DNA from: Rhizobium skierniewicense
GTDB taxonomy: Bacteria > Pseudomonadota > Alphaproteobacteria > Rhizobiales > Rhizobiaceae
Reading direction: 5' to 3'
Length of the DNA: 64,000 nucleotides
Assembly (NCBI RefSeq): GCF_014196515.1
Contig: NZ_JACIDV010000014.1
Coordinates: forward strand, 1 to 64,000
Shown here piece by piece: positions 42,707 to 45,821 of this stretch. The position numbers were made by a program, and so were the translations under genes. How positions within the stretch are numbered: position 1 is the stretch's first letter; each line of letters begins with the position of its first letter. The notes beneath the pieces are model-generated. The model did not search any database. It was given only the letters and a program-made list of their open reading frames with translations, and was not told where the DNA came from.

Positions 42707-42733
42707 GCCGCCTGAATCGGAATGTCAGGCGGC
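42707..42733 (-). terminator. Terminator of the vapBC-GFA-pip operon
   Basis: Perfect 9-bp stem GCCGCCTGA / TCAGGCGGC with a nine-base loop, 26 bases after the pip stop. It is followed on the minus strand by an AT-rich tract with several T. Confidence 0.7.
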
Positions 42734-42758
42734 AACGCTAAATCCTTGTAATATATGA

Positions 42759-43715
42759 TTATTTTCCCGCGAACCGATCTGTCGCGCGAATGAGCTGGTC
42801 GAGAATACCGGGTTCGCTCATCGCATGACCGGCAGCCTCGACGATATGCAAATCCGCTTTCGGCCATGCCTTGGACAACTGCCAGGCATATTTCAGCGGG
42901 CAGGGCATGTCGTAGCGTCCGTGGACGATGACGCCGGGGATGTCTTTCAGCGTGTGGGCATCGCGCAGCAACTGGCCGTCTTCGAACCAGCCGGCATTGA
43001 CGAAATAATGGGTTTCGATGCGCGCGAACGCGATAGCATATTGCTCTTCGCCGAAATCATCGACACGGCCCTGATCCGTCACCAGCGAGATTGTCGCACC
43101 TTCCCACTGGCTCCAGGCCTTGGCGCATTCCAGCTTCTTCTTTTCGTCGGTGCCGGTGAGATAGCGATTATAGGCGACCATCATCTCGCCGCGCTCGGCC
43201 TCGGGAATGGGCGCAATGAAGGTTTCCCAGCGGTCGGGATACATTTCCGAGACACCGAACTGATAGTACCAGTCCAGTTCCGGCTTGGTCAGTGTGTAGA
43301 TGCCACGCAGGACGAGTTCGCTGACGCGATCCGGGTGGGTCTGCGCATACGCAAGCGCCAGCGTCGAGCCCCAGGAACCGCCAAACACCTGCCATGTCTC
43401 GAAACCGAATTTTTGCCGCAGCTTTTCCATATCCGCCACCAGATGCCACGTCGTATTGGCCTCCAGAAACGCATGCGGTGTGGAGCGGCCGCAGCCGCGC
43501 TGGTCGAAGAGGATGACATCGTAAAGCGCCGGGTCGAACACCCTTCTCTGTGTGGGGTTGACCCCGCCACCGGGACCGCCATGCAGGAAAACGGCGGGCT
43601 TGGCACCCTTCGTGCCGACACGTTCCCAATAGATCACATGGCCGTCACCCACATCCAGCATGCCGGTATCGAAGGGCTCTATCTCCGGATAGAAACCGCG
43701 CAACGCGTTGCTCAT
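42759..43715 (-). CDS. pip: Proline iminopeptidase
   Basis: A 318-aa alpha/beta hydrolase of family S33 that removes N-terminal proline. Visible elements are FLHGGPGGG (oxyanion loop), [12 protein letters not shown], nucleophile Ser in [10 protein letters not shown], the Asp in GRYDMPCP and the catalytic His in EAAGHAMSE. The start at 43715 has AGGAAA and overlaps the stop of the upstream GFA gene by four bases. Last gene of the six-gene chain. Confidence 0.95.
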
Positions 43716-44188
43716 GTCGTCTTTTCCTGTGGTGGCCAATGCGCTGTATCCTTGTCTGGATGCTGGTGGTTTTTGACGGTCTGCTCTGGGCCGTCCGTCG
43801 CCTCTACGGGCAGGGTATCGAGATGAGAAAACCAATGCATCTTGCTGGAAAGGTTTGATTGTGCTTCCGGTATGATGTCGAGCGGTTCGTCCAGCGAACC
43901 CAGCGTGACATTGATGAAATTCTTGTCCGGAATATCATAGAACAACGGCGTCCCGCAGGTGCCGCAAAAGCCGCGCCGAACGTGATCTGACGATTGAAAC
44001 CAGTTTGGCTTGCCGCGTGTGAGCCTGAAGCGATCAAGGCTGCTTGCGCCAAGCGGCAGAAAATAATTGCCCGATGCCTTCTGGCACATGCGGCAGTGGC
44101 AGACATGCGGATAGCGGATGTCACCCTCTATCCTGTAACGCACCGCGCCACACTGGCATCCGCCGGAGACTGCCGTCGCGCCCGTCAA
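43712..44188 (-). CDS. GFA-fold (DUF636) protein 1
   Basis: A 158-aa zinc protein of the GFA/CENP-V family. Metal-ligand cysteines are C11, C13, C30, C32, C35, C75 and C78 ([28 protein letters not shown]). The family name comes from an S-hydroxymethylglutathione synthase whose activity is disputed, so the reaction is open. It ends in [13 protein letters not shown], a tail shared by its two neighbours. Both ends overlap the adjacent genes by four bases. Confidence 0.9.
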
Positions 44189-44649
44189 TTCACAGTATCC
44201 TCAGGTGGCCAGACGTGGGTATCCTGATCAGGGTGTTGAAAGGAGACCATGGAGCTCTCATCCAGACTTTGCTGCGCATGTGGCTTGTCGAACAGGGTTT
44301 TGATCCACGGCATCTGCATGTGCGTGTTGACTTGCACCTGTGGCTCGACCTCCTGCGGGTGATCGAAGGCGCCGATGGCAATTTCGACGCCGCCCGGATG
44401 GTGATAGGTCAACGGCGTGCCGCATTTGTTGCAGAAGCCGCGATGGATTTTGGCGGACGAGCGAAACAGGCTTGGCTGCCCGCGCGTCCATGTCAGATGC
44501 GCCTGATCGGCCGTGACGAGCGCGCCGAAGAAATTGCCGAACTGCTTCTGACACATGCGACAATGGCAGATGGAGGGGCGACCAAGCTTGCCTGCGTGAA
44601 AGCGAACCGCGCCACATTGGCAACCGCCGGAATAACCTGCATCGCTCAT
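44185..44649 (-). CDS. GFA-fold (DUF636) protein 2
   Basis: A 154-aa paralogue of genes 1 and 3. Cysteines C10, C12, C28, C30, C33, C73 and C76 are all kept. The start at 44649 has AGGAG upstream, inside the preceding gene; a start seven codons earlier is less likely. The tail is FQHPDQDTHVWPP. Four-base overlaps on both sides. Confidence 0.9.
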   Translation of the reverse strand: MSDAGYSGGCQCGAVRFHAGKLGRPSICHCRMCQKQFGNFFGALVTADQAHLTWTRGQPSLFRSSAKIHRGFCNKCGTPLTYHHPGGVEIAIGAFDHPQEVEPQVQVNTHMQMPWIKTLFDKPHAQQSLDESSMVSFQHPDQDTHVWPPEDTVN

Positions 44650-45128
44650 TGATTTTTCTCCTGTGGCCATGCCTGCGTGTCGTGGTCGGGATGCTGATGG
44701 GATGTGAGGTTCGCCAGATAATCAACCGATGTCAAATCGTCCTCGGTCGGCACGGCGGGCAGGGTGTGGAGGCGATCCACGAAGCTGATCTTCCGCTCGA
44801 CACCCCATTGTATAGACGGCGGGAACGTCGAGGGATCGTCAAATGCGCCCGCAGCAACGGCCATGCCATCCGGTGCCTCATAGGTCAGTGGCGTTCCGCA
44901 ATCGCCGCAAAAGCCACGGCTCACCACACTGGAAGACCTAAACCGCTTCGGCTCTCCGCGCGTCCACGCAAAGTCCTTGCCCCGCACCGAAACCAACGGC
45001 GCATAATAGGCGCCGAACGCCTTCTGGCACATGCGACAATGGCAGATGGAGGCATCGGCAAGGTCACCCTCGACACGAAACCGGATAGCGCCGCATTGGC
45101 ATCCGCCGGTGTGGATGCGTGTTGTCAT
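44646..45128 (-). CDS. GFA-fold (DUF636) protein 3
   Basis: A 160-aa paralogue: C10, C12, C29, C31, C34, C74, C77. The core [20 protein letters not shown] and RGFCGDCGTPLTY is closer to protein 2 than to protein 1 by eye. Tail HQHPDHDTQAWP. Its start overlaps the vapC stop by four bases. Confidence 0.9.
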   Translation of the reverse strand: MTTRIHTGGCQCGAIRFRVEGDLADASICHCRMCQKAFGAYYAPLVSVRGKDFAWTRGEPKRFRSSSVVSRGFCGDCGTPLTYEAPDGMAVAAGAFDDPSTFPPSIQWGVERKISFVDRLHTLPAVPTEDDLTSVDYLANLTSHQHPDHDTQAWPQEKNQ

Positions 45129-45544
45129 GGCTGGCTCCCTTCGATCCAGTTTTCGATCTTTAATCCCTCGACACGAGAAAACTCCCTGACGTTGTTGGTG
45201 ACGAGAATGATATCCAGTGAGAGTGCGTGCGCCGCGATGAACATGTCTGTGGTGCCGATCAGAGTGCCACGTTGTTCCAGAGACGTTCTTATATCGGCAT
45301 AATGTCGGGCCGCAGCTGGGCCGTAATCGACAGTAGCTATTCTGGTGAGCAGGCCTTCGACCAGATGCGAGAGCCTTGCCGATCCCTTGCGCTTAATACC
45401 AAACAGAATTTCGGAGAGAACGATTGAGCTTATACAGATGTCATCTTGGCTGAGATGGTAAAGCTTTTCTGCGGCAGGCCCAAACGGATTTCGGACCACG
45501 TCGGACACGATATTGGTGTCCAGCATGTAGCGCGCTGTCGTCAT
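45125..45544 (-). CDS. vapC: VapC-type PIN-domain toxin
   Basis: A 139-aa ribonuclease toxin. All PIN acidic residues are in place: D9 (YMLDTN), E45 (LSEILFG), D100 (GTTDMFIAAHAL), with N118 nearby. VapC toxins cut initiator tRNA or other RNAs. The gene overlaps vapB by four bases upstream and a GFA gene by four bases downstream. Confidence 0.93.
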   Translation of the reverse strand: MTTARYMLDTNIVSDVVRNPFGPAAEKLYHLSQDDICISSIVLSEILFGIKRKGSARLSHLVEGLLTRIATVDYGPAAARHYADIRTSLEQRGTLIGTTDMFIAAHALSLDIILVTNNVREFSRVEGLKIENWIEGSQP

Positions 45545-45786
45545 AAATCAACAGATCTCGGCGGCTGTTCATCGAGATCGAATTCAGGGACATCTTCGTC
45601 AAGGGGGCTCTGCTGCCGTAACCACTCGATCATATTGCCCTTGCGACGATCAGTCGGTTCGATGATGAGGCGGTCCCCATCTCTGTGCATGACCGCCTCG
45701 TCACCAGGAAGCTCGAACTCCACCGGAATTCGAACGGCCTGATTGCGTCCGTTCCTAAATAGCTTGACGTGTCGCTCTGCGCTCAT
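45541..45786 (-). CDS. vapB: VapB-type AbrB-fold antitoxin
   Basis: An 81-aa antitoxin. The N-terminal swapped-hairpin AbrB/SpoVT DNA-binding domain reads AERHVKLFRNGRNQAVRIP and continues to DGDRLIIEP. The C-terminal tail (SPLDEDVPEFDLDEQPP) is the acidic toxin-neutralising part. First gene of the chain. It probably represses its own promoter at the palindrome 45808-45821. Confidence 0.93.
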   Translation of the reverse strand: MSAERHVKLFRNGRNQAVRIPVEFELPGDEAVMHRDGDRLIIEPTDRRKGNMIEWLRQQSPLDEDVPEFDLDEQPPRSVDL

Positions 45787-45807
45787 CCCAACCTTCCTTA
45801 TCAGGCA

Positions 45808-45821
45808 TATGCTGTAGCATA
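45808..45821. promoter_or_regulatory. Putative VapB operator
   Basis: Perfect palindrome TATGCT-GT-AGCATA, 22 bases upstream of the vapB ATG, in the 82-base gap to cysS. On the minus strand TATGCT also resembles a -10 box, so VapB binding would block the promoter. Inference from position and symmetry. Confidence 0.5.

Follow-up and report, generated by a model that had tools for sequence, protein, structure and literature searches.

Why do metabolic genes of Rhizobium skierniewicense stand in a row led by a toxin-antitoxin (TA) module of the vapBC type, and does the module control them? The locus lies on the minus strand of contig NZ_JACIDV010000014.1 (assembly GCF_014196515.1), within the 64,000 nucleotide (nt) stretch of DNA that was analysed here as a whole and is referred to as the window; it comprises vapB, vapC, three genes for proteins of the GFA/CENP-V family (GFA3, GFA2 and GFA1) and the peptidase gene pip. 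An earlier reading of this DNA (the original prediction) had proposed that vapBC leads, and is translationally coupled to, the other four genes, and that autoregulation by the antitoxin would set their expression. Our analyses favour, with a probability of about 0.52, the interpretation that vapBC is a long-lived, optional and autoregulated head of a gene row, cysS-GFA(1-4)-pip, that is widespread in the Rhizobiaceae. Control of the GFA and pip genes by VapB is, as judged from comparative sequence evidence, the most likely reading, in which vapBC would be an optional regulatory head and not an essential part of a GFA-pip row that can do without it. The parts of the locus, in the direction of transcription, are as follows.

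45869 to 47275, minus strand: cysS, the upstream neighbour, whose start may be 47251 (TIGR00435, 440.3 bits, cut-off 340)
45804 to 45825, minus strand: imperfect inverted repeat of 22 nt, GGCCTATGCT-ac-AGCATATGCC, the proposed VapB(C) operator
45541 to 45786, minus strand: vapB, AbrB/MazE-type antitoxin of 81 amino acids (PF04014, 1.6e-6, above cut-off)
45125 to 45544, minus strand: vapC, PIN-domain toxin of 139 amino acids (PF01850, 1e-19)
44646 to 45128, minus strand: GFA3, GFA/CENP-V family with CxC, CxC and CxxC motifs (PF04828, 6.5e-24)
44185 to 44649, minus strand: GFA2, GFA/CENP-V family (PF04828, 2.3e-21)
43712 to 44188, minus strand: GFA1, GFA/CENP-V family, with a TTG start in a TTGA overlap (PF04828, 4.9e-22)
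42759 to 43715, minus strand: pip, prolyl aminopeptidase (TIGR01249, 403.5 bits, cut-off 259.75)
42706 to 42734, minus strand: hairpin 3' of pip that resembles a terminator but lacks a clean T run
41670 to 42602, minus strand: rarD, the downstream neighbour (TIGR00688, 188.8 bits, cut-off 130.15), syntenic in the genus

The predicted chain of six genes on one strand with five consecutive 4-nt overlaps is present. In transcription order the overlaps read ATGA, ATGA, ATGA, TTGA and ATGA; the fourth, at the GFA2/GFA1 junction, requires the TTG start of GFA1, and TTGA is also found at this junction in a relative of the genus (L156). A gap of 82 nt separates cysS from vapB, and the Pfam families along the chain are MazE_antitoxin, PIN, GFA (three times) and Abhydrolase_1. 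The run of five overlaps looks uncommon; a crude gene call on the window, with 32 pairs of neighbours on the same strand, listed 4 that may overlap by 4 nt, a figure that gives no sound background rate, as the call missed the cluster's own overlaps (0 of its 4 lie in the cluster).

Under the favoured interpretation, VapB, together with VapC, would bind the 22-nt repeat at 45804-45825 and repress a putative promoter located there. From this promoter, RNA polymerase would produce a single transcript covering vapB, vapC, GFA3, GFA2, GFA1 and pip, and at each 4-nt overlap ribosomes ending one gene would reinitiate on the gene that follows, with a coupling of some presumed strength. Under stress, degradation of VapB would open the promoter, and the output of GFA and pip proteins would rise while VapC slows translation.

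The term slot is used here for the space between cysS and the first GFA gene. The order cysS, slot, one to four GFA genes and, usually, pip is common in the Rhizobiaceae, and a search for genomes in which vapBC lies directly upstream of GFA genes, which had been suggested as a check on the original prediction, has identified 23 distinct slot modules. The carriers span at least 11 genera, named records without genus codes being left out of this count. Eighteen of the modules come from a VapC search of 297 Rhizobiaceae genomes, 88 of which had a match at an E value of 1e-20 or better; the best 30 of these 88 were read for their surroundings (the other 58 stand outside the count), and vapBC was directly before a GFA gene in 18 loci (the window included), each with cysS upstream, and stand-alone in 12. 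The others are that of G009, a relative within the genus, and those of named records among 80 loci of GFA3 relatives, where vapBC occupies the slot in L091 (A. vitis), L094 and L097 (Mycoplana), L107 and L133; one of these five, L094 (the locus of Mycoplana dimorpha DSM 7138), duplicates G268, with an identical VapC, and was left out of all tests. In the loci from Xanthomonas, Stenotrophomonas and their kin, the queries matched GFA only. A VapC search beyond the family, at the level of the order (top-ranked matches, flanks of up to 1.5 kb), found GFA beside vapC in 2 of 29 loci (viz. the window and G108), and no GFA beside it in the other 27. The association of vapBC with GFA genes thus appears to be real, apparently old, family-wide and optional; most relatives are without vapBC, and the association seems to be a lasting one and not a one-off accident.

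Within the genus, the surroundings of pip in 36 other genomes were compared, and the order cysS, slot, GFA3, GFA2, often GFA1, pip and rarD is kept in nearly all of them (the exceptions being L151, in whose stretch cysS was unseen, L142, which begins at the end of a contig, and L175, where rarD had no match). The slot holds vapBC in a single one of the 36, G009 (locus L144), where vapC ends with a TAG 2 nt before GFA3 and two GFA genes follow; GFA1 was not found in G009 and in several other relatives. A VapB search of 39 genus genomes returned matches in 10, of which only those in the window and G009 are close to each other (91%), the remaining eight being at 46% or below. Thirty-four genus slots had a gap that could be read by eye: 23 hold an intact frame of the DUF559 type, 3 a broken or interrupted one (L156, L166 and L173), 7 either no frame or a remnant and 1 vapBC. 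We also considered, from the genus alone, that vapBC had recently taken the place of a DUF559 leader in two of its species and dropped this explanation, as vapBC occupies the same slot elsewhere in the family.

A census based on cysS covered the wider family. It searched 151 genomes, 147 of which matched, and the 3' side of cysS was taken in 120 (the 27 left out were genus members, contig ends, reduced genomes or further genomes). The slot contained vapBC in 7 loci, all in genomes that are also among the 18 above, DUF559 in 26 and neither in 66; in the remainder, pip preceded GFA (8), no GFA was present (12) or the stretch was too short (1, of 290 nt). Of the 99 loci with the slot layout (read over about 5 kb each), 68 have pip after GFA. 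In the other 31 (e.g., L235, L236, L241 and L256) pip was not found behind GFA, and a pip-like gene lies before GFA in eight further census genomes.

These counts bear on the possibility that vapBC is a passenger, i.e., a module that preserves itself in a permissive slot downstream of cysS, an essential gene, and that is linked to GFA by place only and overlaps it through the stop that ATGA supplies. In agreement with this, the slot also takes DUF559 (26/120), glyoxalase-like genes and, in L156, a transposase-like frame (seen by eye); 4-nt overlaps with GFA are likewise seen for DUF559, cysS, pip and unassigned frames; most genomes lack vapBC; and relatives of VapC abound on plasmids (at least 5000 records), all below 60% identity among the matches listed. 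However, the way in which the slot label clusters on the VapC tree and VapB tracks cysS (both described below) fits long residence better, and the occurrence of one operator type across genera, together with purifying selection, likewise fits long residence better than repeated casual arrival. Between the window and G009, dN/dS (the ratio of nonsynonymous to synonymous substitution rates) was 0.07 for vapB and 0.11 for vapC, near the values for GFA3 (0.08), GFA2 (0.05), pip (0.05) and cysS (0.04), and purifying selection therefore appears to act on vapBC in this lineage. We regard a passenger as quite possible, if short of probable.

The element upstream of vapB is a further part of the case for an autoregulated head. 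The original prediction had bounded the unit by a palindrome and a hairpin, and the 14-nt palindrome at 45808-45821 is exact, with 1 match in the window at up to one mismatch where 0.04 would be expected. It forms the core of the 22-nt inverted repeat at 45804-45825, the pattern of which occurs once in the 4.8 Mb genome and which is a candidate operator for autoregulation. The inner arms of the repeat are kept in G009, and the pattern GGC(A/C)TATGC, short spacer, GC(A/C)TA(T/G)GCC is common to many slot loci of other genera, sometimes as longer repeats. A strict form of the repeat precedes the called vapB in 15 of the 23 slot modules compared with 2 of the 20 stand-alone modules that have a vapB, and in the census the repeat is found in 6 of the 7 vapBC slots versus 0 of the 100 other slots, 32 of which are shorter than 200 nt. 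These census counts, taken over whole stretches, are the same as those of an earlier scan that left out the initial 100 nt of each stretch and used strict together with loose patterns. Because of this distribution (15/23, 2/20 and 0/100), the repeat is best described as a probable operator type of this VapB lineage that is commoner in the slot but also present outside it. For the hairpin at about 42706-42734 the folding energy is -19.4 kcal/mol (z -3.8), and the same stem occurs behind pip in 8 of 13 genus relatives (L142-L147, L149 and L150), six of which have a T run after it. In the window itself only a poor T run follows the stem, and the hairpin was absent from the output of the terminator scan.

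The junction between vapC and the next GFA gene is an overlap in most of the carriers. Among the 23 distinct modules it is a 4-nt overlap in 17, an 8-nt overlap in 3 and a gap of 2-3 nt in 3 (in G174 and G223 later possible starts are also present). The VapC frame itself is extended towards GFA; after the ENW/EDW motif, a tail with a median of 6 residues is found in the 23 slot proteins versus 2 in 25 stand-alone proteins (Mann-Whitney p 4e-9, from rows that are not phylogenetically independent), the residues after ENW numbering 4-8 and 1-5, respectively, so that the slot frame reaches the GFA start. In the window, the tail IEGSQP extends in this way to the start of GFA3. The recurrence of the overlap, the VapC tail and the operator-like repeat across carriers lends comparative support to coupling. 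A 4-nt overlap with GFA is also seen for other upstream genes, viz. DUF559 in 11 of 14 cases, cysS in 9 of 16, pip in 2 of 3 and unassigned frames in 30 of 60 (the junction script breaks ties towards 4 nt), and an ATGA at the GFA start supplies a ready stop. The proposal that vapBC is translationally coupled to GFA is thus supported by an overlap in 20 of the 23 carriers and weakened by the fact that cysS, DUF559 and other genes overlap as tightly.

The cysS data also suggest that the GFA-pip genes could be read mainly from the cysS promoter, with vapBC in between adding only a weak internal promoter. Where cysS lies directly upstream of GFA (16 census loci), the junctions other than the nine overlaps are within 1 nt (2 loci) or at 5-40 nt (5 loci), and a promoter scan was empty upstream of vapB. 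We consider such an arrangement unlikely in the window, where 82 nt containing the unique repeat separate cysS from vapB.

Several results weigh against vapBC as an autoregulated and coupled head of this row. Thirty-seven of the 39 genus genomes have no close VapB, and in 100 of the 107 census loci with GFA behind cysS there is no vapBC in front; the original prediction had named relatives that lack vapBC and keep GFA-pip with its own promoter as evidence against it, and as far as the gene content is concerned such relatives are the rule. The strict repeat is absent before the called vapB in 8 of the 23 slot modules (in one of the 8, G145, it stands before a second vapB instead) and present in the stand-alone L207 and L209. 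The carriers nearest to the window, viz. G009, G347 and L091, have no overlap between vapC and GFA, and they form one clade with it on the VapC tree (support 96/88), so the overlap in the window was probably regained by the loss of a TAG; junctions are not fixed, as the gap and the two GFA genes of G009 also illustrate. Since DUF559, cysS and other genes overlap GFA alike, the tight junction appears to belong to the operon, and coupling would not be special to vapBC. Lastly, no promoter was among those that the promoter scan listed for the region before vapB. The repeat at 45804-45825 overlaps a weak promoter-like pair (TTGCGC, 17 nt, TATGCT; 7 of 12 consensus letters, by eye) that lies under the threshold of the scan, and promoters located within vapC or before cysS would also be compatible with the data.

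A more surprising result, and one that reaches beyond this locus, is that the core of the toxin gene seems to have been exchanged in place. Nucleotide identity was examined region by region in 27 pairs of relatives chosen by the author, and a clear step was seen in four slot pairs (G321/G205, G247/G304, G283/G223 and G073/G278), in which the DNA-binding half of VapB is at 77-91%, the body of vapC at 48-56% and the GFA side at 83-93%. The end of vapC is kept in three of these pairs (84-90%) and not in G321/G205 (65%). In the latter pair, both members of which have genus code g78, identity is 85-86% in the operator region, 80-90% in vapB and 41-68% in vapC, and, past a single bin at 78%, returns to 83-93% in GFA. 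The profile of G247/G304 (both g39) starts at 88-96% in the operator region and 91% in the 5' part of vapB, falls to 41-71% beyond this part and through most of vapC, and is 91-98% from the end of vapC into GFA, with single bins at 90%. The replaced core in L193 (G321)/L236 (G205) and L191 (G247)/L204 (G304) covers the vapC body and part of the 3' half of vapB, as it does in the stand-alone L009 compared with L005, L007 and L008. Profiles are flat for window/G009, G115/G205 and L207/L209. A comparable step occurs in stand-alone modules, L009 versus L005, L007 and L008 showing 92-98% in the DNA-binding half, 51-52% in the body and 95-98% downstream. In the cysS-GFA gap of L239 (G145), an intact orphan vapB stands in front of a complete vapBC that has an operator of its own, the second in this gap, and we interpret the orphan as a probable trace of module turnover.

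The protein comparisons are consistent with such an exchange. Median identities in the 23 slot modules are 0.68 for the DNA-binding half of VapB, 0.50 for its tail and 0.51 for VapC, versus 0.46, 0.41 and 0.51 in 18 stand-alone modules; at a VapC identity of 42-60%, the DNA-binding half is at 0.68 in 235 slot pairs versus 0.44 in 136 stand-alone pairs, the pairs being not independent and the stand-alone set mixing VapB types. In Mantel tests against cysS distances (n 21, without G351 and G283, where cysS matched in several segments), VapB gave a rho of 0.53 (p 0.0002) and VapC one of 0.19 (p 0.035; 0.19 and p 0.027 in a first test with n 23 that included these two), and VapB and VapC distances hardly agree with each other (0.14, p 0.12). 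That VapB follows cysS and VapC hardly does is explained by a toxin core exchanged in place, as the stepwise profiles suggest. The slot label requires 3 changes on the VapC tree compared with 14.9 in shuffles, and 4 on the VapB tree (L012, L013, L014 and L017 were left out of the VapC trees, and L015, L016 and loci without vapB out of the VapB comparisons). Approximately unbiased (AU) tests reject neither one slot clade (p 0.092 for VapC and 0.234 for VapB) nor a single clade of the five g78 rows (0.121 and 0.279); the trees thus agree with a single origin of the slot vapBC and also with several, and the case for toxin exchange therefore rests on the identity profiles and not on trees.

These results raise the possibility that the operator and VapB are the half with a kept function, the antitoxin serving as repressor of the operon, and that the toxin half is exchangeable or disposable. 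The toxin cores exchanged in the four slot pairs and the higher conservation of the DNA-binding half in the slot (0.68 versus 0.46, with VapC at 0.51 in both sets) point in this direction, as do a VapC in L091 whose third active-site Asp, D100, is changed to G and a solo vapB-like frame in L093 that overlaps GFA by 8 nt. However, the same exchange in the stand-alone vapBC of L009 shows that it is a habit of the family at large, not a peculiarity of the slot, VapB types are mixed in the stand-alone set, the AU tests reject neither clade, and all three acidic residues are retained in 22 of the 23 slot VapC proteins (D9, E45 and N118 in 23/23, D100 in 22/23). We think this explanation as a whole rather unlikely. 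Returning to vapBC as a long-lived, optional head, a more far-reaching version of it would be that a TA module was taken over family-wide as a removable transcription head of a thiol-protein operon, in which the operator, the DNA-binding half of VapB and often the GFA-joining end of vapC are kept and recombination among related modules swaps the middle part specific to the toxin; we put this forward tentatively, as an idea that is doubtful at present. In L093, the vapB-like frame (about 5840-6010) has no vapC, and the 3' end of cysS is duplicated just upstream of it.

The module resembles known VapBC systems. It shares with the Shigella flexneri VapBC (3tnd) an AbrB/MazE-type VapB, a PIN-domain VapC with acidic residues, overlapping genes and an operator-like repeat upstream of vapB, and the Shigella complex binds two operators, over its own -10 and -35 (PMC3384007, in the parts consulted). 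In the Rhizobiaceae, the Sinorhizobium meliloti modules NtrPR (VapBC4), VapBC5 and VapBC10 affect symbiosis and are linked to metabolic balance, and VapBC10 is a two-gene operon whose toxin cleaves tRNA-Ser, GFA and pip not being mentioned in the sections of that source that we consulted (PMC10945364). Such modules are described, in the portions of these sources that were seen, as two-gene units, whereas here the module heads metabolic genes and vapC mostly runs into the GFA start. Makarova et al. (2009) suggested that homologues of antitoxins regulate diverse operons (PMC2701414, consulted in part); unlike the solo antitoxins considered there, VapB is here usually still accompanied by its toxin, and "GFA" and "formaldehyde" have 0 occurrences in the main text of that paper. 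In open-licence PubMed Central, no paper combined vapBC with "formaldehyde-activating", and among the matches listed nothing concerned the vapBC-GFA arrangement or the in-place exchange of a toxin, in agreement with the earlier statement that no system of this composition has been described. If the antitoxin controls GFA and pip, the locus would represent a natural TA module acting as the stress switch of an operon in at least 11 genera, and its many relatives without vapBC would provide natural controls. Because toxin cores are exchanged in place, within the slot and elsewhere, the evolution of TA specificity becomes directly testable.

The assignments of VapB, VapC and the GFA proteins are made at the level of families. 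VapB matches PF04014 at 28.4 bits (cut-off 24.7), its gene overlapping vapC by 4 nt, and the acidic residues D9, E45 and D100 are all present in the VapC of the window; a 12-row VapC profile (A1) matched the Shigella VapC 3tnd at 2.1e-34. Both proteins fall under the curated cut-offs of NCBIfam models for particular equivalogs or subfamilies (48.8 versus 100 and 46.1 versus 60 for VapB; 126.5 versus 140, 102.1 versus 143 and 42.4 versus 80 for VapC), and we therefore claim no particular VapC equivalog or tRNA target. GFA1 scored 25.1 bits against the S-(hydroxymethyl)glutathione synthase model TIGR02820, far under its cut-off of 234.55, and GFA2 and GFA3 had no NCBIfam match at E 0.001; for all three, we propose membership of the Pfam family and do not claim identity with that synthase. 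The solved chain nearest to GFA3 by sequence is 8ajq (3.5e-11); the Paracoccus Gfa 1x6m shares PF04828 and the cysteine pattern and matches GFA3 in sequence at E 0.013 only. That Gfa was reported (PMC4682968) to bind glutathione but, under standard conditions, to show no catalysis of the formaldehyde step, and the family name is therefore safer here than an enzyme name. The product of pip scores well above the cut-off of the prolyl aminopeptidase model.

The other occupants of the slot were characterized in part. Some of the census slots with neither vapBC nor DUF559 contain a glyoxalase-like gene, two proteins tested matching PF00903 and the others being recognized by eye. The DUF559 identity was checked on the protein of L145 (PF04480, 6.9e-40), and in many genus genomes (L143-L177) repeat-like DNA of the type CCCCCTCTGCCCTGCCGGGCATCTCCCCC was seen by eye in the gap between cysS and GFA3, before the DUF559 gene.

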